In this document: piece after piece, positions 17,339 through 62,952 of the stretch
Layout of the letters: the number at the start of each line of letters is the position of its first letter
How positions within the stretch are numbered: the stretch's first letter is position 1
Assembly (NCBI GenBank): GCA_902778105.1
Contig: CACYWN010000007.1
Location: 23,223-87,222, forward strand
Length of the DNA stretch: 64,000 nt
Reading direction: 5' to 3'
Source: an uncultured Bacteroidia bacterium
GTDB lineage: Bacteria > Bacteroidota > Bacteroidia > Bacteroidales > UBA932
Program-made: the position numbers and the translations under genes
The notes under the pieces: generated by a model
Databases searched by the model: none
The model's input: the letters and a program-made list of their open reading frames with translations, nothing else
What the model was told of the DNA's origin: nothing

Positions 17339-17369
17339 CAAATGTAGGAAATTTTTTTCGTTCTTCAAA
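17339..17369 (-). promoter_or_regulatory. susC operon promoter
   Basis: On the minus strand, TTTG (17369-17366), a 19-base spacer, then TACATTTG (17346-17339) exactly match the Bacteroidota sigma-ABfr consensus (TTTG, N19-21, TAnnTTTG). Transcription should start near 17332, giving a 5' leader of about 20 nt before the susC ATG. Confidence 0.8.
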
Positions 17370-53380: not shown

Positions 53381-53446
53381 AGTTCAGAATGACAGATGGA
53401 TCATCGTTCAGAATGACAGATGGTCATCGTTCAGGATGACAGATGG
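53381..53446. repeat. Three tandem ~23-bp repeats between rpiB and the P-loop protein gene
   Basis: Copies of GTTCAGAATGACAGATGG(A)TCATC start at about 53382, 53406 and 53429 (the last has GGATG). The GAATGACA core links them to the dispersed repeat. The first two lie in the intergenic gap; the last encodes the C-terminal ICHPER of the upstream gene. Confidence 0.8.
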
Positions 53447-54515
53447 CGTTTTGGCAGACACGGACCGCCTCTTCGTCGGGACGGCACTTCAGCTGGAAGC
53501 AGGGAATGGTCATGGCGACACGTTCGATGGTGGGAACCAGGAGGGACATGATCCCATGATTCCAGCGGATGGTGGAGACAGCGGCGATGACGCTTGCATA
53601 GGCCTGGAGCGGCTCGAGCCTCTGGATACGGTTTTCCGGATACTGCTCCAGCCGCACGAGGGCGTTCACCGGGGCGACGACATTGCGGTAGCAGAGCGTC
53701 TTCCCGCTCCACGGGGAGCCGTACACAAGGCATTCGCCATCCTGGAAACGGATGACGGGATTATCGTCGTTCATCAGGTCGGAGCCGGGAACAAAGGCAT
53801 GCCACAGGCGGCTGTGGGTGCTCTTGCCCGTCCCGCTCACGCCGAAGAACAGGTTGCCACGCCCCTCGAACCGCGTAACCGACGCATGCAGCAGCAGTGT
53901 ATCCAGCCCCGCCGTCGCAAAGGTATACTGGATCATCAGGGAGGTATTCACCTGGAAGAGCGTGGCTCTTCCGCCGATACGGGGACAGGGATAGTAATGG
54001 CCTTCCCGATAATCCTCGTTCATCACGAAATAGCCGGCCCTGACATCCCTGGCGGGCAGAAATTCATAGATGGTTTTCCCTTCATGCGTGTAGCCGTAAT
54101 AGAAGGGCGGCAGTTCGTCCACGGCGGTCGCCAGTTTCCAGGCCGGACGGGTCTCTTCCAGCCACGAAGGAACGTCCGCATGGACCGTGAAAGTGAATAC
54201 CGGATCGCCCTCTGCGACTTCGAACGGGGCATACTGCAGGAAATCCAGCGCGTGCCGGTATTCCATCCGCTCCTGCTCGTCCAGGGCATCCCACTTTTCA
54301 CGCGTCATCGCTTCCTTGCCCATGATGGACTCGTTCACGGACAACTGCTCCTGCCGGTCGGCCGGAACGGATTCGACACCGATGTCTTCGCCGCGACGGA
54401 GCTGGTCGACCAACGATAACTGACGGTCGGTCAGCGCCTTGAAAGTCCAGGGAGATTCCAAACGGACCCGTACGGTGTGGCCGCCGATCCGGTAAAGTCT
54501 GCTTTCCACGTTCAT
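53424..54515 (-). CDS. P-loop protein of the HPr-kinase/PEPCK-like type
   Basis: 363 residues from ATG 54515 (the frame is open upstream, but that part covers the promoter and the neighbouring gene). The N-terminal ~200 residues have no motif I recognise. The C-terminal half has a Walker A GVSGTGKSTHSRLW (residues ~224-237), a Walker-B-like DLMNDDNPVIR and GSPWSGKT, the layout of HPr serine kinase/PEP carboxykinase relatives. Such proteins are common beside small-peptide and RiPP-like genes, and this one is divergent from a 46-residue peptide gene. The last residues (ICHPER) come from the tandem repeat. The biochemical role is unknown; phosphorylation of a peptide or protein is an inference. 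Confidence 0.7.
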   Translation of the reverse strand: MNVESRLYRIGGHTVRVRLESPWTFKALTDRQLSLVDQLRRGEDIGVESVPADRQEQLSVNESIMGKEAMTREKWDALDEQERMEYRHALDFLQYAPFEVAEGDPVFTFTVHADVPSWLEETRPAWKLATAVDELPPFYYGYTHEGKTIYEFLPARDVRAGYFVMNEDYREGHYYPCPRIGGRATLFQVNTSLMIQYTFATAGLDTLLLHASVTRFEGRGNLFFGVSGTGKSTHSRLWHAFVPGSDLMNDDNPVIRFQDGECLVYGSPWSGKTLCYRNVVAPVNALVRLEQYPENRIQRLEPLQAYASVIAAVSTIRWNHGIMSLLVPTIERVAMTIPCFQLKCRPDEEAVRVCQNAICHPER

Positions 54516-54521
54516 AACATG

Positions 54522-54552
54522 CAAAGATGGGCAAAATCTTTGGATAATCCAA
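54522..54552 (-). promoter_or_regulatory. Promoter of the P-loop protein gene
   Basis: On the minus strand TTG (54552-54550), 20-base spacer, CATCTTTG (54529-54522; one mismatch to TAnnTTTG). The -7 box ends only 6 bp before the ATG at 54515, so the transcript may be nearly leaderless. Confidence 0.5.
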
Positions 54553-54574
54553 TCCACAAAGGCGCCACCACAAC

Positions 54575-54605
54575 TTGCACAGGCGGAATGATCTTTGTAT
54601 ATTTG
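54575..54605 (+). promoter_or_regulatory. Promoter of the first small-peptide gene
   Basis: TTG (54575-54577), 20-base spacer, and a perfect TATATTTG (54598-54605). The ATG at 54612 is only 6 bases after the box, about where transcription should begin. Confidence 0.72.
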
Positions 54606-54611
54606 TCCGGT

Positions 54612-54752
54612 ATGGATAACCTCAAGGATTACAGGAAACCGGACCTCCGCCTCGTCGAGGTCGGTTTCGAGCATGCCCTGCTCCAGGCATCCGGGACGGA
54701 CAGGGCTGACGACGGCTACGATCCCGGAATCGACCTTGGAGACCTGGACTAG
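54612..54752 (+). CDS. Small peptide A (46 residues), homologous to small peptide B at 62020
   Basis: It encodes MDNLKDYRKPDLRLVEVGFE followed by HALLQASGTDRADDGYDPGI and an acidic end (DLGDLD). The pattern P-x2-R-[IL]-V-[DE]-V-x-[FY]-E-x-[AS]-[LF]-[LM]-Q is shared with the peptide at 62020-62151. It has no signal peptide or membrane segment. Its own strong promoter lies directly upstream, and the gene ends 4 bp before a nuclease lipoprotein gene, so the two should be co-transcribed. Short peptides with a P-x-[VIL] core and an acidic tail are widespread in Bacteroidales near surface-lipoprotein genes, but I know of no established function. Confidence 0.75.
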   Translation: MDNLKDYRKPDLRLVEVGFEHALLQASGTDRADDGYDPGIDLGDLD

Positions 54753-54756
54753 CGCT

Positions 54757-57258
54757 ATGAAAAGATTCCTTCTCCCGGCCCTGCTTGCGGCCATCGCCCT
54801 ATTCGGATGCCAGAAAGGCAACGAAGTCAGTGGCGGAAACCTGGAATTCAGCTCCGACGCCCCCCTTACCCGTACCGGATGGACGGGCGAAACCATCGAA
54901 TGGACGGCGGGCGACGCCATCAGCATGGCCTATACCGTGGACGGGCAGTGGGTCGGACCGAACCTCTACCCTTCCACTCCCCTGGCCGCAGGCGGCCCTA
55001 CGGCCCATTTTTCCGTTCCAGGGAACTTCTCTTCGGGCGCTGGGTCCCTCCACCGGTTCTACGCCGTTTATCCGGCTGTCGGCCACACTGACTTCAGCGA
55101 TGCACCGGACGTGTTTACTTCCGTCCCGGAAATCCAGACGCCTACGGCCTCTTCATTCGACCCGGCTGCCGACCTGATGGCCGGCATCTCCCGCGACACC
55201 TACAAACAACTCCCCAAGACGGCGGTTCCCCTCAGATGGACGCGACTCACCGCCCACGCCGACATCACGCTGAGGAACCTGACCCTCGCCGAGGGAGAAT
55301 CCATCAAAAGCATCGTCCTCCAGGGACAGAACGGCGCCGAACTCACCGGTGACGTCATCATCGACCTCGCGAATCCGGAGGAATTCACCACGGCGGGTGT
55401 TCCCCGTGTGACGGTCATGGCCGACAACCTCACCCCTGCCGCCGACGGCTCCCTGAACTTCTGGGTCAGCGTCTTCCCGACCAGCCTCACCGAACTCACG
55501 GTCTCGGTGGAAACCGACAAGGCCAGCTACCGGAAAACATTTACCGGCATCTCCAAGAGCTTCACGCAGAATGCACGGAACATCCTCGGAATCAGCATGA
55601 CGGGTGCGGAGAAAGTCACTCCGGTACAGGAACCCGAATTCTATGTCAAAGTGACCCAGGCCCCCACCGACTGGACGGGAGACTATCTTGTGGTGTATGA
55701 ACCCGATGCACTTGTGCTGGACAGCGACGGAGACGCCAAGACGCATGCCTCCGTCACGATTTCCAATGACAAGATCGCGTATGAAAGCGCAAAGGCATAC
55801 AACATACATATCGAGAAGTCCGGATCGGGTTACACAATGAAACTGGGGGACAACTATTTCGGACTGAATTCCGGAAGCAAGAATGCGCTCAATGTCAGCC
55901 CGGCCGAGCCCACGGACGGCTACCGCTGGACCTTCCGGAGCGCCGAAGGTGCCCTCCGGGCCTATAACGTGGCCTATAGCACCCGTTTCCTCCAGTACAA
56001 CTCCGGTTCCGGCCAGTTCCGCTGCTATACCAGCGCCCAGAAGGAGGTCACCTTCTTCAAACTGGACGGGGAAGCCGGTGGCGGCGGTGGCACCGATCCT
56101 TCTCCGGTCACTCCGACGGTGACCACCGGTGACGCATCCAACGTCACGCAGACGGAAGCTACCCTGGCTGCCACCTATACAGGTACGCCCACCTATGGCG
56201 GTGTTCAATGGGGCTTGTCTGCCTATGCCTTGACCGAGGACTGGCAGGCGTCCTATCTGAACAATGGCGCCTTCAACGTCACCATCGACGGACTGGGTGC
56301 GGGTCACACCTATTACTACCGGGCTTATATCGCCGTTCTGGAAGGTACTGAGTACAAATTCTATTACGGTAAGACCAGGAGTTTTACCACCCCGGCCAGC
56401 GAAATCGTCATCGGCGGTGACCAGCCCGGCTGGTACGAAGCGCCGGTGATGACCATCCAGACCAGCGGCGGTTACAAGATGAACAAGAACGACAAAACGC
56501 AGTATTACGCCATCCACATGTGCACCGGAGGTGAAAAGGGTCCCGGCGGCAAGACTGCCCGCAACTACACCGTCTGCTACAGCGGCAAGTATCATTGCCC
56601 GCTCTGGGTCGCTGCCCCGAGACACAACATGTATGTAGGCGGCAGCGGCCGTACCGACGCCTATCGCCAGGATCCGGACATTCCTTCCAACATCCAGTAT
56701 AATTCCAAGAGCACGGGCGGCGGCTGCAACAAGGGTCATATGCTGGGCTCGGCAGAACGAACCTCCTCCACGGCCACCAACCGGGATGTCTTCTATTACA
56801 CGAACATCGCCCCGCAACTCTCTTCCGGGTTCAACACCGGCGGAGGTGGCTGGAACATCCTGGAAGACTTTGTGGACACACAGGTATGTGCGGATACCCT
56901 GTATGAAGTGCTGGGCTGCTATTTCGACAAGTATACAGATGCTTACGGCTGGACCGTCTCCCCTTCCACCATCAGTTTCGGCGGCCGCAACGACGTGTCG
57001 ATGCCCACGATGTACTACTATGTCCTGCTCCGCACGAAGAAAGGAAACACCGGCAAGGCGCTTTCCAGCTGCACGGCTGACGAACTCCAGTGCGTCGCCT
57101 TCGTCCGCTCCCACACCAACAGTTTGAAGGGACAGAAAGTCACCTCCCGCGAACTGATGTCCGTCGCCGACCTGGAAAAGATAACCGGCGTCACCTACTT
57201 CCCCAACGTTCCCCAAGCCCCGAAGACCAGTTTCAAAGCTTCCGATTGGGGGCTCTGA
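54757..57258 (+). CDS. Lipoprotein with fimbrillin-like domain, FN3-like domain and DNA/RNA non-specific endonuclease domain
   Basis: 833 residues. Lipobox ALFGC at residue 18. Residues ~25-290 resemble the fimbrillin-like module (TRTGWTGETIEWTAGDAISM). A beta domain (~300-440), a glycine linker, an FN3-like domain (~455-555; VTTGDASNVTQTEATLAATY, YYYRAYIAV) and a C-terminal endonuclease-like domain follow. The nuclease active-site motif, normally DRGH, reads NKGH (H at ~661), and NIAPQ (~683) replaces N-x-x-PQ. The catalytic histidine is kept but the aspartate is not, so activity could be reduced or changed. The ATG at 54757 is 4 bp after small peptide A. It should sit in the outer membrane as a surface or periplasmic nuclease. 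Confidence 0.85.
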   Translation: MKRFLLPALLAAIALFGCQKGNEVSGGNLEFSSDAPLTRTGWTGETIEWTAGDAISMAYTVDGQWVGPNLYPSTPLAAGGPTAHFSVPGNFSSGAGSLHRFYAVYPAVGHTDFSDAPDVFTSVPEIQTPTASSFDPAADLMAGISRDTYKQLPKTAVPLRWTRLTAHADITLRNLTLAEGESIKSIVLQGQNGAELTGDVIIDLANPEEFTTAGVPRVTVMADNLTPAADGSLNFWVSVFPTSLTELTVSVETDKASYRKTFTGISKSFTQNARNILGISMTGAEKVTPVQEPEFYVKVTQAPTDWTGDYLVVYEPDALVLDSDGDAKTHASVTISNDKIAYESAKAYNIHIEKSGSGYTMKLGDNYFGLNSGSKNALNVSPAEPTDGYRWTFRSAEGALRAYNVAYSTRFLQYNSGSGQFRCYTSAQKEVTFFKLDGEAGGGGGTDPSPVTPTVTTGDASNVTQTEATLAATYTGTPTYGGVQWGLSAYALTEDWQASYLNNGAFNVTIDGLGAGHTYYYRAYIAVLEGTEYKFYYGKTRSFTTPASEIVIGGDQPGWYEAPVMTIQTSGGYKMNKNDKTQYYAIHMCTGGEKGPGGKTARNYTVCYSGKYHCPLWVAAPRHNMYVGGSGRTDAYRQDPDIPSNIQYNSKSTGGGCNKGHMLGSAERTSSTATNRDVFYYTNIAPQLSSGFNTGGGGWNILEDFVDTQVCADTLYEVLGCYFDKYTDAYGWTVSPSTISFGGRNDVSMPTMYYYVLLRTKKGNTGKALSSCTADELQCVAFVRSHTNSLKGQKVTSRELMSVADLEKITGVTYFPNVPQAPKTSFKASDWGL

Positions 57259-57280
57259 TAAGATTTCTCCATATTCAAAC

Positions 57281-57315
57281 GCTGACGGTGGTCCAGATGA
57301 TGGACCACCGTCAGC
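57281..57315. terminator. Strong hairpin after the plus-strand nuclease gene
   Basis: A perfect 15-bp stem (gctgacggtggtcca / tggaccaccgtcagc) with loop gatga, followed by ATTTT, 22 bp after the stop codon. It probably terminates transcription from the left. Confidence 0.75.
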
Positions 57316-57332
57316 ATTTTACCCCCATTTCT

Positions 57333-57367
57333 GCTTATGGCGGTCCATCATCTGGACCACCATAAGC
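57333..57367. terminator. Second hairpin, reverse-complement-like partner of the first
   Basis: A 15-bp stem with one mismatch (gcttatggcggtcca / tggaccaccataagc) and loop tcatc, next to the stop codon of the minus-strand nuclease. The inner 23 bp are the near-exact reverse complement of the first hairpin's core, so the two loops are complementary. Confidence 0.7.
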
Positions 57368-57369
57368 AC

Positions 57370-58479
57370 TTAAAAGTTCTTAAACGTATTCCAATTCTTG
57401 TTGGTTTCGGCCGTGGCCGCGAGAGCGGGCGGAAGGTTCGCAAAGAAATCGAAGCCCGTCTTCTGTTCGATCTCGTCGACACTGACGGCGAAGTTCTGCC
57501 AGTTCTCGCCGCTGTGGGCCTCGTGGGTGAACCAGAAGCCGATGGCGGAGGCGGCGATCACGGTACCGCCGGAGCGGCGGACCTTCAGCAGGACTTTGTA
57601 ATAGTAGTTCGGAATCGGAACGACCTTGTCGTCATTGGACGAATTCTTGAACGTACGGACCGTCTCGCCGCCGCCGACCATCTGATAGACCGGGCCGGTG
57701 ACCACATAGACGGAATCACGGGAAGTGACCAGGTTCCGGACCTGGTTCTCCAGGTTGTTCCAGATTCCCTGATTGAAACTCGCGTGCTGCGGCGTGCTGT
57801 TGGTCCAATAGTAGGTCTGGTTCTGCAGGCTATTGTCTGCATTACGGTCGGCATTCGGGATCTGATGGCCCCGGTCGTAGGTCACCCCGTCCACGGACGG
57901 ATAGGCCGACTTGCAGCTCGTCTGCTTGGAAGCGGGAATCTGCGGATTCACCGACCAACCGCCGCCCGTACCACTGCCATGGTAGGCACTGCAATAGACA
58001 TAGGCCGTCCATAGGGAGGCGTACCGCGAAGGATCGTAAAGGATGGAATAGTTGCGGACATTCTTCTCATTCAACGTTCCGCGCATCGTGACCAGATACT
58101 TCCCTCCCAGCGAGGAAGGAGACTCCGGCAATTCGAGCCAATCCCTGTTGAGCGTGACAGAGGTCGATGCCGACAAGGTCCGGAACGACTTCACGCTGCC
58201 GTAAACCTCCTTATAGGTTCCGTCAACCAGAACCTCCATGAAGGCGACATAATAGTAAGTCTTGTCCTCGTCCAGGCCGCCGGCGGTCGCGCTGAAAGAC
58301 CCGCGGCCGATGGTCAGCGCGGACTGAGTATACACAACCTGCCCGTTGCTCACGAGCGAAGCGAGACTGGAGGAGGTCCCCACATAGAATCCCGCTGCCT
58401 GGAAAGACTGGACCCCTGAATACGAAGCGGACAGGGTTGCCCCTGTCGCGCTTACGTTATTCGCGGAACCTGTGGTCAC
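57370..58479 (-). pseudogene. DNA/RNA non-specific endonuclease module cut off from its lipoprotein carrier by an in-frame TGA
   Basis: 369 residues if read from the first GTG at 58479. FN3-like domain (residues ~1-105; VSATGATLSASYSG, YYYVAFMEVL), then an endonuclease domain with canonical DRGH (residues ~202-205), NADRNADNSLQNQTYYWTNSTPQ and ENQVRNL. This fold digests DNA and RNA outside the cell. It has no signal sequence of its own. The same frame continues upstream for 13 codons (GSSGGDAGGEEPT) to the TGA that ends the lipoprotein at 58519. In the paralogue at 54757 the corresponding glycine linker joins the domains without a break. So this is either the C-terminal part of one ~1540-residue protein disrupted by a nonsense change, or reached by read-through. 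Confidence 0.75.
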
Positions 58480-58518
58480 TGTGGGCTCTTCACCCCCGGC
58501 GTCGCCGCCGGATGACCC

Positions 58519-61500
58519 TCATTCGTAGGTGACGACCAGTTCCGTAATACGGACCTGGTTGTCCGTAGCGGTGAAGGAAACGGAAGACGCGGAACCCGTC
58601 CAGGTACCCACAAAGCCATCGGCCTCAAAGGAATACCCTTCAGGAGCACCTGCGCCCCAGCAACCAGGACCTTGTTTGGCCGTACCCTTGGCCGTGCAGG
58701 TCATCTTGATGCTGGTAATCTTGTAACCCTCAGAAGCGGAGACAACCAAAGTATTGCTCTTGTACACACGAAGTTCCGTCGGAACTGTCGTACCGTAATC
58801 CGAAGAATTGGTGTAAGAAATCACATCCTTGCTACCATTCTTGTTGGCAGCAAGATAGTCCTGGTCAAACACGACGGTTCCTTCCGTCTCCGCCGGTTTG
58901 GTAGTAACCGTGACATTGCAATACTTCTCGGCATCCGTGTACTTGCCTTCCACGCCGGCGATACGGGCATAGACTTTCACCGTTCCTTCAGCAACACCGG
59001 TGACGACACCGGACGCATTGACAGTGGCGATGGAAGGATCTTCGCTTTCATAAGTGATCGTAGCCTCCGCCACATTGGAGGAAGCGTTCAGGGCAAAGGT
59101 CTCACCAACATAAACGTTGTGATTGGAAGGAAGCGAGATAGTCGTCGTGATCTCGGAAGGCTGATCCGGGAAGGTGGTGCCGTCACCGGTATAGACAACC
59201 TCGACGGCAGTGATGCGGACCTGGCCGTTATCCACAGTTCCGGAGTTCCCCACCGTGTAGGTAACACTGGTACCGGAGACCGTCTGGGTGTCGTCACTGG
59301 CGACCTGATTTCCCTGCGTATCCAGAAGAATGCCCGTATTGGTAACGACATAAGTGAACTTGACCGACTTCAATTCACAGCCTTCGGCGACCGTGATGAT
59401 GACATTGCCGTTCTGCTTCTGATACAACCGCCATTGTTTCGTATCGTTGGAACTGCTGGTATTCCAGAAGGATCCGCAATTGTCAGCACCGGTCGTGGAC
59501 ATCCGCACGGACTCATTCAACTGGAGGGTCTTGTACATAGTTGCATCAGATCCGGAGGAAACCGTGCAGCCGTGATCCTCTACATACTGGGACATCGTGA
59601 TGGACAAGGTATTTCCATCCACGACGGAAGCACTGACCGTAATCTCATATTTCGCAGTCGCGGTCTTTTCACCCTCCTTATAGGTGACAGTCACTTCCTT
59701 GGTGCCGGCCGTGGACATGTCGGGCTTGGAGACTTCCGTAGGCTGCACTTCCTTGGTGGAACCGTCGCTGTAGGTCGCGGTGACTTTGCCGTCGAAAACG
59801 AAGGTGTCGCCCACGTTGAAGGCCGTCTTCTGACCGGAAACGGCGATGGACTCGAGGGTGGCAGCCGGGGCAGCATCACCGGAATACTTCACCGTGATGG
59901 CCTTGATGCGGCGGTGACCGCTGGTGCCGCCGACGGTAAAGGTCACGGAGCCGGCTTCGCCCGTCCAGGTGGGTTCAGCGTAAGTCGGGACATCGGTGGT
60001 GATGGCATTGGATCCTTCACCACTGCTGAAGGTAAGCTCGATCGAGACAATGGTCTTTCCGTCAGCATTGACAGTAAATGTATTACCGCCATAAGTACGG
60101 ACGGCTGTTCCCGTACTATAATACTTAGGAACATTAGCTCCGGTTCCCTTGTCAAAGGTCACCGTCACGCCATTCTCGCTCACTTCCGTCACTTCGGCAC
60201 CGTTCTCATACCCCTGCTCGGAGAAGTCGATGGTGACGCTGGTCGTACCGGCGGCATCGGCCTTGGCCTGGGTGATGTTGATCTCGAACTCCTCGGTACC
60301 GGCAGCCACCAGGGAAGGCTCGTCCGTGCGGACGAAGACGGTGTATTCCTTGGGGTTCTCGGTATCCTCGTTCTTCGCGAAGGAAACGGTAATGACTCCT
60401 TCGCCCTCGCCGGACTCCTTGTCCAGGGTAGCGCCGTCAGAAGCCTCGGCGGTCCAGGCAACGTTACCGGAGACATTGATCTTCACGGACGTGGTGGTGG
60501 CGGAGACTTCGGTCTGCTCGGCCACGGCATTGAAGAACGGGGCGTCCTGGGCGACGATGTCGTCCTGGGCCCAGAGACCAAGCTGCTTCGTCGTATTGTA
60601 ATAGGTAGGATAGCCCACCATGTCGTACACGCCCAGAGGGACATCGAGAGTATTGGTTACCTGCGCATAGAGGTTCAGTTCAGACTCACCGTCCTTGATG
60701 GCGCCGTTGCGGTCGCTCGTAGTGATGGCGTCGGTCACTTCCACATCGGAAAGCTTCACGCGGACGCTGACATAGCGGTCGTAATCGGCCAGCAGGTCGG
60801 CCAGGGAAAGCTCGAGGGCAGCGGGGGCTTCTCCGGAAGCCTTGTCGAAGCCGGTAAGCGAAGTAAGCTGGCGGACACCGTAGCGGATCCAGCCCTTGCC
60901 GGATACCAGGCCGCTCAGGACATCGCCGGCCTTGAGGCCGTGGCCGCTCATGTACAGGAGGATACCTGCGGTCTCATCCTGGATGAAGGCGCTGTTGCCG
61001 CTCACGAAGGACACGGTGGCACCGGCCAACTGTCCGGTGAACTCGCTCGGAGAAGACTGCTGCGTGCTGGTGATCGCCTCGTTGATGTCGGCCACCGTAA
61101 TGGTCGGGACGACGGCCGGAGCCTCATAGGAGAGGTTCAGCGTCTTGATGGAACCGCCGCCGAAGGTGTATGCCTGCGTCAGGGTGACGGTCTTCTCCAC
61201 TTCGCCCTGGTCGGCGAGGACGACGAGTTTCAACTCGGAATCGACATTGGCCGTGAAGGGCTTGACAGCCATGTAGAACTTGGCGGAAGCGCCGGGGGCG
61301 ATGGCCTCGGCATCCTCCACGGAAAGGGTCACGGATGCGGACACGTAATTGTCGCCGCTGCTCTTGAAAGCAACCTTTTCACCGGAGAAATCGATGTAAT
61401 AGGTTCCCACGACATCTTCCGGGGCCGTAAAGGAAACCGAGCTGACAGTCAGGGGCTTGTCCGTGTCATTGGTGAGGTTGACGGCCACCACGGAGGAGAC

Positions 61501-61998
61501 GTGCTTCATCGAAACCACGGGCTTCTGGTCCACGGCGACATTCTTCGCCACGCCGACGACCGGCAGGTTCTTTCCGGCCAGGTGGGCCATGCTGTCATTC
61601 CCCTTCTGGGTCTGGTTCAGGCCACCGACAGTCATATAGCCGCTGTTGGTGTTGGCCGGCGTCTTCAGATGGGAATCATACGGATAGAAGAGATACCAGT
61701 CATAGGCTTCGGCCGTCAATTCGACTTCGCCCACGGCCAGGTTCTGGTCCGGATCCGTCACGTCGAACTTGGCGACGGCATACTCGGTCTGTCCGGCGGG
61801 TGCATAGAATACGCTCAGGGCGTCGCCTTCCACCCACTTGGTCGTCATTCCGCTGTTGACCGTACGGGTGGAAGCATCGGAAAGGACGATCTCGTAGGGA
61901 ACGCCGTCAAGGCCTTTGACATCGGCTTCCTTGTTACAGCCGACGAAAGACAGGGTGGCAGCAGCCAGACCCGCAAAGAGAAGGAATTTTTTCATCAC
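58519..61998 (-). CDS. Multi-domain beta-rich lipoprotein (fimbrillin-like, OB-fold, BACON, Ig-like modules)
   Basis: 1159 residues; start ATG 61998 or the next codon. Lipobox SFVGC near residue 21. Order of modules: fimbrillin-like domain (~25-300; TRTVNSGMTTKWVEGDALSVFY), OB-fold/DUF5689-like (~310-485; GNSAFIQDETAGILLYMSG), BACON-type (~490-580), then three copies of a beta-module with the pattern WTG-x3-SV-x-FT ... RI-x4-V-x-Y (about 590-715, 805-950, 1050-1159), separated by a bacterial Ig-like domain (~725-800) and a Big_2-like domain (~960-1045; IATVNASGVVTGVAEGTVKVYA). It lies 21 bp after small peptide B. The TGA stop is directly followed in frame by the nuclease module. An adhesin-like carrier is the likely role. 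Confidence 0.82.
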   Translation of the reverse strand: MMKKFLLFAGLAAATLSFVGCNKEADVKGLDGVPYEIVLSDASTRTVNSGMTTKWVEGDALSVFYAPAGQTEYAVAKFDVTDPDQNLAVGEVELTAEAYDWYLFYPYDSHLKTPANTNSGYMTVGGLNQTQKGNDSMAHLAGKNLPVVGVAKNVAVDQKPVVSMKHVSSVVAVNLTNDTDKPLTVSSVSFTAPEDVVGTYYIDFSGEKVAFKSSGDNYVSASVTLSVEDAEAIAPGASAKFYMAVKPFTANVDSELKLVVLADQGEVEKTVTLTQAYTFGGGSIKTLNLSYEAPAVVPTITVADINEAITSTQQSSPSEFTGQLAGATVSFVSGNSAFIQDETAGILLYMSGHGLKAGDVLSGLVSGKGWIRYGVRQLTSLTGFDKASGEAPAALELSLADLLADYDRYVSVRVKLSDVEVTDAITTSDRNGAIKDGESELNLYAQVTNTLDVPLGVYDMVGYPTYYNTTKQLGLWAQDDIVAQDAPFFNAVAEQTEVSATTTSVKINVSGNVAWTAEASDGATLDKESGEGEGVITVSFAKNEDTENPKEYTVFVRTDEPSLVAAGTEEFEINITQAKADAAGTTSVTIDFSEQGYENGAEVTEVSENGVTVTFDKGTGANVPKYYSTGTAVRTYGGNTFTVNADGKTIVSIELTFSSGEGSNAITTDVPTYAEPTWTGEAGSVTFTVGGTSGHRRIKAITVKYSGDAAPAATLESIAVSGQKTAFNVGDTFVFDGKVTATYSDGSTKEVQPTEVSKPDMSTAGTKEVTVTYKEGEKTATAKYEITVSASVVDGNTLSITMSQYVEDHGCTVSSGSDATMYKTLQLNESVRMSTTGADNCGSFWNTSSSNDTKQWRLYQKQNGNVIITVAEGCELKSVKFTYVVTNTGILLDTQGNQVASDDTQTVSGTSVTYTVGNSGTVDNGQVRITAVEVVYTGDGTTFPDQPSEITTTISLPSNHNVYVGETFALNASSNVAEATITYESEDPSIATVNASGVVTGVAEGTVKVYARIAGVEGKYTDAEKYCNVTVTTKPAETEGTVVFDQDYLAANKNGSKDVISYTNSSDYGTTVPTELRVYKSNTLVVSASEGYKITSIKMTCTAKGTAKQGPGCWGAGAPEGYSFEADGFVGTWTGSASSVSFTATDNQVRITELVVTYE

Positions 61999-62019
61999 GT
62001 GGTTCTTTTCGGGTTCGAC

Positions 62020-62151
62020 TTAGAAGTTGATGGGATCGTTGTCGTCCTCCCAGTCATCGATGGGGCCGGTAGCGGACTGCATGAAACTGCCCTCGTAGCG
62101 GACATCGACGATGCGCACGACAGGCGTCAAATAGAGTTCTTTTTTCTCCAT
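62020..62151 (-). CDS. Small peptide B (43 residues), homologous to small peptide A
   Basis: Encodes MEKKELYLTPVVRIVDVRYE, then GSFMQSATGPIDDWEDDNDP and INF. It shares with peptide A at 54612 the pattern P-x2-R-[IL]-V-[DE]-V-x-[FY]-E-x-[AS]-[LF]-[LM]-Q-[AS]-[SA] and an acidic DP-containing tail. The longer open frame upstream overlaps the promoter, so the ATG at 62151 is the start. First gene of the minus-strand unit: peptide B, big lipoprotein, nuclease module. No signal peptide is visible. Function unknown; being the second peptide heading a nuclease-carrying unit argues that the pairing is not chance. Confidence 0.75.
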   Translation of the reverse strand: MEKKELYLTPVVRIVDVRYEGSFMQSATGPIDDWEDDNDPINF

Positions 62152-62189
62152 GGAATTATGTATTTTTTGTGTTTTGGCTATAATCGTTG

Positions 62190-62220
62190 CAAATTTACGG
62201 ATTATCTGCCAAAAGACCAA
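62190..62220 (-). promoter_or_regulatory. Promoter of small peptide B operon
   Basis: Minus strand TTG (62220-62218), 20-base spacer, perfect TAAATTTG (62197-62190). Predicted leader of ~30 nt to the ATG at 62151. Confidence 0.75.
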
Positions 62221-62921: not shown

Positions 62922-62952
62922 TTTGTTTTATCGGATTTTATGCCTAAATTTG
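62922..62952 (+). promoter_or_regulatory. rpsO promoter
   Basis: TTTG (62922-62925), 19-base spacer, perfect TAAATTTG (62945-62952): an exact match to the Bacteroidota consensus, 60 bp before the rpsO ATG. Confidence 0.85.

Follow-up and report, generated by a model that had tools for sequence, protein, structure and literature searches.

The stretch of DNA analysed here (the window) comprises 64,000 nucleotides of contig CACYWN010000007.1 (positions 23,223 to 87,222 of the forward strand; GenBank assembly GCA_902778105.1) from an uncultured Bacteroidia bacterium, and at its positions 54,516 to 62,220 it holds two gene units, A and B, each of which begins with a short peptide gene and joins a lipoprotein to a DNA/RNA non-specific endonuclease (Endonuclease_NS, PF01223). 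The bacterium is a gut-associated member of the Bacteroidales, and its genus, judged by habitat and species number, is probably Candidatus Cryptobacteroides. In unit B, the lipoprotein and the nuclease constitute a single reading frame that is divided by one in-frame UGA codon (58519-58521, minus strand) and stays open for 382 codons beyond it. Judged by sequence comparison, unit B probably (with a probability of roughly 80%) represents programmed UGA readthrough that yields mostly a plain lipoprotein together with a minor, nuclease-bearing form. In the proposed mechanism, the unit B mRNA would encode the lipoprotein in two forms: most ribosomes would terminate at the UGA and release a lipoprotein of 1158 amino acids (aa), while a minority would insert an amino acid there and proceed via a glycine-rich linker and an FN3-like stretch into Endonuclease_NS, giving a product of about 1541 aa in total. 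The RNA located 3' of the UGA, which consists of a spacer of 7 nucleotides (nt), two stacked hairpins (HP1 and HP2) and a distal hairpin (HP3), may slow termination or favour a near-cognate tRNA and would thereby set the ratio of the two lipoprotein forms, so that a small fraction of the lipoprotein would carry the nuclease through export and anchor it. The best-known examples of structure-driven stop-codon readthrough come from viruses and animals.

The lipoprotein open reading frame (ORF) of unit B spans 58519-61995 on the minus strand, ends in the UGA, carries the lipobox MKKFLLFAGLAAATLSFVGC, and contains Big-type immunoglobulin (Ig) domains. The open frame that follows (57370-58518, minus strand) comprises the linker GSSGGDAGGEEP, an FN3-like stretch named by eye, and the Endonuclease_NS domain at 57430-58071 (minus strand; PF01223, E 3.6e-46). 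Both Endonuclease_NS domains of the window pass the curated PF01223 cut-off of 23 bits, with scores of 158 and 97 bits. An initial annotation of this DNA had described a nuclease on a lipoprotein in each unit; PF01223 domains and lipoprotein genes do lie behind both peptides, and for unit B the description was correct as to the components yet incomplete, since the two share one frame that an in-frame UGA interrupts, and it mentioned neither this stop nor the RNA structure. L072, L074 and L076, and a paralogue (L055) on another contig of the same genome, also have this single UGA. Among the named loci, which are eight contigs of metagenome-assembled genomes, mostly from ruminants, nuclease B is present in four of the seven relatives that have unit B in view, L078 showing only its end.

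A nuclease-first survey that was blind to RNA structure covered 151 genomes of the window's genus, 145 of which contained a match, and 30 loci were opened. In 17 of them a single stop separates the lipoprotein from the nuclease, 12 encode continuous fusions, and one encodes a standalone nuclease with an apparent signal peptide of its own; none of the 30 has its lipoprotein out of frame with the nuclease across a junction stop. Together with L055, the 17 split loci form an unbiased set in which the junction stop is TGA and in frame in 18 of 18 cases and HP1 is present in 15 of 18. The distance between the stop and the start of HP1 is exactly 7 nt in these 15 and in all of the collected loci described below. 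Upstream lipoprotein domains vary widely between loci, while the frame and the stop are constant.

Two covariance models of the RNA, R1 and R2, matched 37 and 43 of 200 genomes of the genus, respectively (E<=0.1, weak matches included). The model searches led to 46 opened loci (30 and 16 new ones), and 38 of these satisfied a filter that required TGA, a paired HP1 and the same frame to be open on both sides. Adding L076 gives the 39 collected loci, and the inclusion of L088, L090, L102 and L126 brings the known UGA-split loci to 43, nearly all from one genus. L126, with a G-U pair in HP1 and an open frame, was added by hand, whereas L130 (second stop), L139, and L136 and L154-L157 (no element found) were not counted, and L077 was dropped as a chance match. 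TGA precedes HP1 in every element recovered at the model matches, any triplet having been allowed there. Twenty-two UGA-split loci could be read to their 5' end (20 fetched loci, the window and L055), and all 22 begin as lipoproteins, 18 by a lipoprotein-start pattern and four by eye; L205 and L207 have Asn before Cys. No signal peptide is visible in the post-UGA frame, which, together with these 22 lipoprotein starts, supports readthrough as the route by which the nuclease would reach its predicted location at the cell surface.

In the window, HP1 is a 6-bp hairpin (58496-58511, minus strand; CCGGCG-GCGA-CGCCGG) that begins 7 nt after the UGA and is directly followed by HP2, a hairpin of 4 bp (58483-58495, minus strand; GGGU-GAAGA-GCCC); both were delineated by folding and covariation. 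HP3, delineated by folding and comparison between loci, is a 7-bp hairpin with a GNRA loop (58430-58447, minus strand; GACAGGG-GCAA-CCCUGUC). Across loci, HP1 and HP2 are stacked directly or have one base between them, and HP3 lies about 70 to 100 nt past the UGA. Folding z-scores of -5.2 and -4.4 were obtained for the structure; the mean over the 39 collected loci is -3.8, with 35 of them below -2, compared with averages of -0.2 and -0.4 in flanking windows and 0.0 in the 12 continuous fusions. The latter have neither the linker nor excess structure, and HP3, found in 30 of the 39 UGA loci, occurs in 0 of 12 of them. Eight of the nine UGA loci without HP3 are, by eye, also without the FN3-like stretch. 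At L090 and L102, an outer stem of CUCCG..CGGAG or CGGGG encloses GGCUAC..GUAGUU, with HP3 in addition, and these junctions form a third structural class.

The base pairs of HP1 and HP2 covary between loci. Pair 4 of HP1 is seen as GC, AU, CG and UA, and the variants of HP2 include GAUG/CAUC, GUAG/CUAC, GGCC/GGCC, GGCA/UGCC and GGAG/CUCC. Pairing is seen in 99.5% of cells in class II (19 sequences), where covariation scores 0.474, above 500 of 500 shuffles; in class I (20 sequences), the score of 0.135 likewise exceeds 500 of 500. Ten covariation measures were calculated in all, and two were clearly reached by shuffles. Pairing of HP1 was part of the locus filter and that of HP2 was not, although R1 and R2 both contain HP2. 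A comparison with Rfam gave two chance-level matches only.

Downstream of the UGA, the ratio of nonsynonymous to synonymous substitution rates (dN/dS) is 0.09-0.27 in the 18 least-divergent pairs, which indicates protein-coding selection. Among six unit-B orthologues, the proportion of synonymous differences (pS) is 0-0.045 in the first 13 post-UGA codons and reaches 0.51 and 0.64 in the FN3 and nuclease regions, the pair L113-L114 being near-identical throughout. From the low pS of the linker and the low dN/dS of the nuclease it follows that selection acts on the RNA in the former and on the protein in the latter. All six loci tested have a PF01223 domain past the UGA. Each of the 39 collected copies precedes a nuclease, recognized by its catalytic RGH motif in 36 and by Pfam in the other three; these three are among the six tested, and two of them were assessed on a longer segment from the same place in the genome.

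The context of the stop codon is consistent with readthrough as well. The base following the UGA (+4) is U in 0 of 43 UGA-split loci, compared with 8 of 35 long ORFs that end in TGA, and +4U is reported to reduce readthrough (PMC5289835). The codon preceding the UGA varies between loci, an argument against ribosome hopping. Genome-wide reassignment of UGA was considered and rejected: 39 of the 97 long ORFs in loci of this genome terminate with TGA (some of these ORFs being possibly spurious), which is hence a normal stop, and no tRNA with a TCA anticodon, and thus no UGA suppressor, was seen among its 36 tRNA matches, 35 of which were called by ARAGORN. The genome is 84% complete, and no tRNA-Trp was seen in it; tRNA-Trp variants with an anticodon stem of 4 bp are reported to increase UGA readthrough in E. 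coli (PMC13092985). The sequences show the in-frame UGA, the covarying RNA structure, selection on the protein past the UGA and the lipoprotein start, and from them we infer that readthrough takes place, as well as its efficiency, the residue inserted and the location at the cell surface. A further suggestion, for which the odds fall somewhat short of even, is that the genus possesses a dedicated, selenocysteine-independent UGA-redefinition RNA, possibly with a trans-acting factor or regulation of its own, that serves specifically to set the share of nuclease-bearing lipoprotein, which would make it a chromosomal analogue, in bacteria, of the readthrough signals of viruses.

Several observations weigh against readthrough or limit the evidence for it. 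An order-wide search of 295 genomes, made with R2 only, yielded, apart from the window's own genome, a single weak match (L163) that is off-frame and attributable to chance. In the 39 collected loci, TGA, HP1 and open frames are circular because the filter demanded them, and the UGA-split loci are related by kinship, so that their counts are not independent. L130 (G048:C12:100934-100978) carries a second in-frame UGA inside HP1 and is either decaying or doubly controlled. L139 (G205:C13:72392-72439) has a TGA element with a G-U pair and an open frame on the nuclease side, together with a stop 85 codons upstream. An orthologous lipoprotein B without this nuclease is found in L073, L075 and L077 (three of the seven relatives), a pattern suggesting that the UGA module has been gained or lost as a unit. 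As to the RNA, L088 shows no clear HP1-HP2, L090 and L102 adopt a fold that differs from HP1-HP2 and is similar between the two, and no consistent pseudoknot partner for the HP1 loop was found downstream. The two covariation measures reached by shuffles are 'further pair types' in class II (158 of 500) and 'pairs changed on both sides' in class I (30 of 500). Seven more distant listed pairs give post-UGA dN/dS values of 0.25-0.59 at dS above 1.1, and the effect of +4U, according to PMC5289835, concerns mainly UAA. Lastly, an in-frame GUG or UUG stands before the RGH motif in every locus with the motif in view, and non-AUG starts for the nuclease may thus be compatible with the data.

This last point bears on the possibility that the nuclease has a gene of its own, whose translation starts by termination-reinitiation or internal initiation just past the lipoprotein stop, with the RNA structure aiding the restart. 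Overlapping stop-start coupling is reported to be common in bacteria (PMC6728339), and an A before the TGA creates an ATGA overlap in 7 of the 18 unbiased loci and in 16 of the 39 collected loci (codons GAA or AAA), the window's locus included. However, no start codon is conserved, L127, L141 and L153 have no AUG ahead of the catalytic motif, and no signal peptide is visible after the UGA. A non-specific nuclease in the cytoplasm would be expected to be harmful. Although a restart needs no common frame, the UGA is in the same frame in all unbiased loci, and the linker stays in frame even though HP1 loops differ by 3 nt. Separate translation of the nuclease is therefore considered unlikely. It is less probable still that the hairpins are an element of recombination, transcription or mRNA stability, with the UGA as an ordinary stop and the nuclease switched on by a DNA rearrangement or made in some other way. 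The UGA module is indeed kept while upstream domains differ between species, as in domain shuffling, but the invariant 7-nt distance to HP1, the exclusive use of UGA at the unbiased junctions and the nuclease behind all 39 collected copies speak against it, and HP2 is not followed by a run of U in the sequences compared.

In bacteria, decoding of UGA as selenocysteine (Sec) relies on a stem-loop that closely follows the codon. The junction of unit B shares this layout, and the hairpins could accordingly be viewed as a Sec insertion sequence (SECIS). A tRNA-Sec above the cut-off was nevertheless found in 0 of 20 genomes with UGA-split loci (58-98% complete), compared with 5 of 14 controls (selA and selB were not searched), and five sub-threshold tRNA-Sec loci that were checked proved to be tRNA-Leu or tRNA-Ser. 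A Gly-rich linker also offers no obvious use for Sec, and this explanation is very improbable. A decaying pseudogene or an error of assembly as the source of the downstream nuclease, a notion to which the second in-frame stop of L130 could be assigned, is already contradicted by the 43 loci from many separate assemblies, by the dN/dS values of close pairs, and by the PF01223 match past the UGA in every locus tested, and hardly any weight is given to it. Programmed readthrough of the UGA thus remains the preferred interpretation of unit B.

The two short genes at the heads of the units, peptide A (46 aa; 54612-54752, plus strand) and peptide B (43 aa; 62020-62151, minus strand), were defined by their ORFs, a family alignment and profile search, and for peptide B also by a head-peptide pattern. 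As first proposed, they are related: both ORFs are present and can be aligned as a single family, and the reading frame is conserved in relatives. Neither peptide matches a Pfam model at E<=0.01 or an NCBIfam model at E<=0.1. A profile built from seven members of the window's own genome matched 213 database proteins at E<=0.1, of which the best 120 were listed. Members at E<=0.01 occur in 13 of 41 genomes, all 13 within the window's genus, and in 0 of 16 genomes elsewhere in the order, where the profile may miss more distant relatives; a search of plasmid records gave none with peptide B. In the peptide-A subfamily (alignment of 29), the C-terminal DRADDGYDPGIDLGDLD is nearly invariant, and the N-terminal half is variable around Y-x-x-P. 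AlphaFold applied to 38 head-peptide sequences gave no confident structure (predicted local distance difference test (pLDDT) 62, predicted template modelling score (pTM) 0.16). Searches of open-access literature, judged by titles and opening lines of abstracts, listed nothing on this family or on the UGA element.

In the window's own genome, the head-peptide profile gives 14 matches at E<=10, including 12 intact members; the others are a match on contig C8 (E 0.29, inside a 697-codon frame) and a broken one at C3:60991. The latter, at C3:60991-61053 (L023), is a head-peptide remnant after which the pattern detects no lipoprotein. A lipoprotein gene directly follows all 12 intact members, and over own, genus and named loci a lipobox ORF starts within 26 nt of 40 of 48 non-edge members, those with the same C-terminus having been removed. 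Peptide A counts among the eight misses because the pattern failed there, and the lipobox match at L022 is in the wrong frame, the true lipoprotein beginning about 15 nt further on. Conversely, the head-peptide pattern stands upstream of 27 of 46 lipobox ORFs and of 16 of 22 UGA-split lipoproteins, compared with 6 of 110 non-lipoprotein ORFs, and none of these six resembles the family; the association exceeds chance. Based on the 12 of 12 and 40 of 48 members, the head peptide is therefore a general first gene of lipoprotein operons in this genus and is not nuclease-specific.

This result modifies the earlier proposal of a functional module of peptide and nuclease. Seen from the nuclease side, the co-occurrence is real: a head peptide precedes 21 of the 22 UGA-split nuclease lipoproteins (16 by pattern and five by a looser look; neither detects one before L211), and at all eight named loci with a peptide of the A subfamily this same nuclease lipoprotein is the next gene (L079 is cut by the contig end). 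Seen from the peptide side, most members in this genome lack a nuclease, an outcome that the initial annotation had named as refuting, and the peptide serves many other lipoproteins; homologues of the nuclease were found by tblastn in 3 of 12 own units (A, B and one on contig C21), with the units on contigs C4 and C33 being cut by contig ends. The module thus stands as a head peptide with a lipoprotein, and not as a peptide with a nuclease. As a guess, the peptide might stay in the cytoplasm and assist the lipoprotein that follows, as a short leader or an accessory peptide.

Precursors of ribosomally synthesized and post-translationally modified peptides (RiPPs), which combine a leader with a core, resemble the head peptides in that these share an N-terminal Y-x-x-P and have divergent, acidic C-termini that are conserved within the peptide-A subfamily. 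A difference is that no common maturase was seen, and a role as RiPP precursor was not adopted. A radical SAM motif is found in the fetched surroundings of one of the 12 own members, on contig C33, and no further CxxxCxxC ORF of at least 250 aa is present in the fetched stretches around own members; other maturase types were checked by eye only. On contig C33, the radical SAM protein (L052:1224-2552, minus strand) immediately precedes a Cys-rich member of the head-peptide family (L052:775-957, minus strand), and its best model is TIGR04463, at 121 bits against a cut-off of 525. These two genes are a possible RiPP pair.

Unit A encodes its lipoprotein and Endonuclease_NS in one uninterrupted frame of 833 aa (54757-57258, plus strand; PF01223 at residues 594-820, E 1.7e-27). 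Divergent from peptide A, as the initial annotation pointed out, is an HprK/PEPCK-like P-loop gene (53424-54518, minus strand) whose matches to PF01293 and TIGR04352 are below the cut-offs; for TIGR04352 (HprK-related kinase A), the score is 18.7 bits against a curated cut-off of 200. The divergent arrangement is confirmed for the window, where the gene is a neighbour, and it does not extend to a general link with the peptide. The kinase and rpiB are present at seven of the eight named peptide-A loci and were not found in the 1.8 kb of upstream sequence available for L078; the gap between kinase and peptide is about 1.5 to 2.7 kb in L074, L076 and L077. In L079, an extra gene for a fimbrillin-like lipoprotein (by eye; L079:4007-4870, minus strand) lies between rpiB and the kinase. 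A survey of 61 genomes of the genus with the kinase, in which 30 loci were opened, the window's own included, gave no peptide-family match at the 29 other loci (flanks of about 1.5 kb; repeated without removing like C-termini). As the peptide profile matches the window's own locus only, a kinase-peptide partnership at distances of up to about 1.5 kb is rejected as a general rule.

Between the units lie two near-perfect inverted repeats (57277-57319, 95% complementary; 57332-57368, 94% complementary), in agreement with the double hairpin on which the units had been said to converge. The perfect Bacteroidota promoter ascribed to each peptide could not be recovered, as TTTG-N17-23-TAnnTTTG matches nowhere before either of them; the window contains two matches, at 17339-17369 and 62922-62952, and by eye -7-like boxes are present at peptide A (TATATTTG) and peptide B (TAAATTTG). 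The match at 62922-62952 (plus strand) is a perfect promoter-like TTTG-N19-TAnnTTTG before an rpsO-looking gene (by eye, from 63013). Adjoining unit B is a gene for a YgjP-like metallopeptidase (PF01863; 62264-62908, minus strand).

If the proposed readthrough is correct, covarying RNA beside a UGA in a bacterial chromosomal gene family, maintained in many species of one genus, would provide a natural system for the study of how RNA folds defeat release factor 2. Such proteins would be cut in two by ordinary gene prediction, with the nuclease left leaderless and seemingly cytoplasmic. Use of DNA or RNA, biofilm or competition in the gut may be governed by how much of the lipoprotein is bare and how much bears the nuclease. 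Independently, the head peptide represents a family that no Pfam or NCBIfam model matches and that can serve as a marker of lipoprotein operons in the genus.

Among known systems, unit A and 12 other homologues, the continuous Endonuclease_NS-lipoprotein fusions, resemble the UGA type in combining a nuclease domain with a lipoprotein anchor; the UGA type differs by the RNA element between the two parts. Bacterial selenoprotein genes with SECIS elements have a hairpin immediately downstream of the UGA as unit B does; unlike them, the unit B type is accompanied by no tRNA-Sec above the cut-off and has its UGA placed in a linker. The gag-pol gene of murine leukaemia virus is a case of structure-stimulated stop-codon readthrough (PMC4178896). 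Both there and in unit B, two same-frame coding regions are split by one stop with an RNA structure a few nt 3' of it, and the longer product puts an enzyme on a structural protein or, in unit B, would do so on a lipoprotein. Unit B differs in belonging to a bacterial chromosomal family, in using UGA and not UAG, and in that its readthrough is a prediction from sequence. Its putative signal is built of stacked hairpins and a GNRA hairpin, in contrast to the pseudoknot that follows the spacer in gag-pol.

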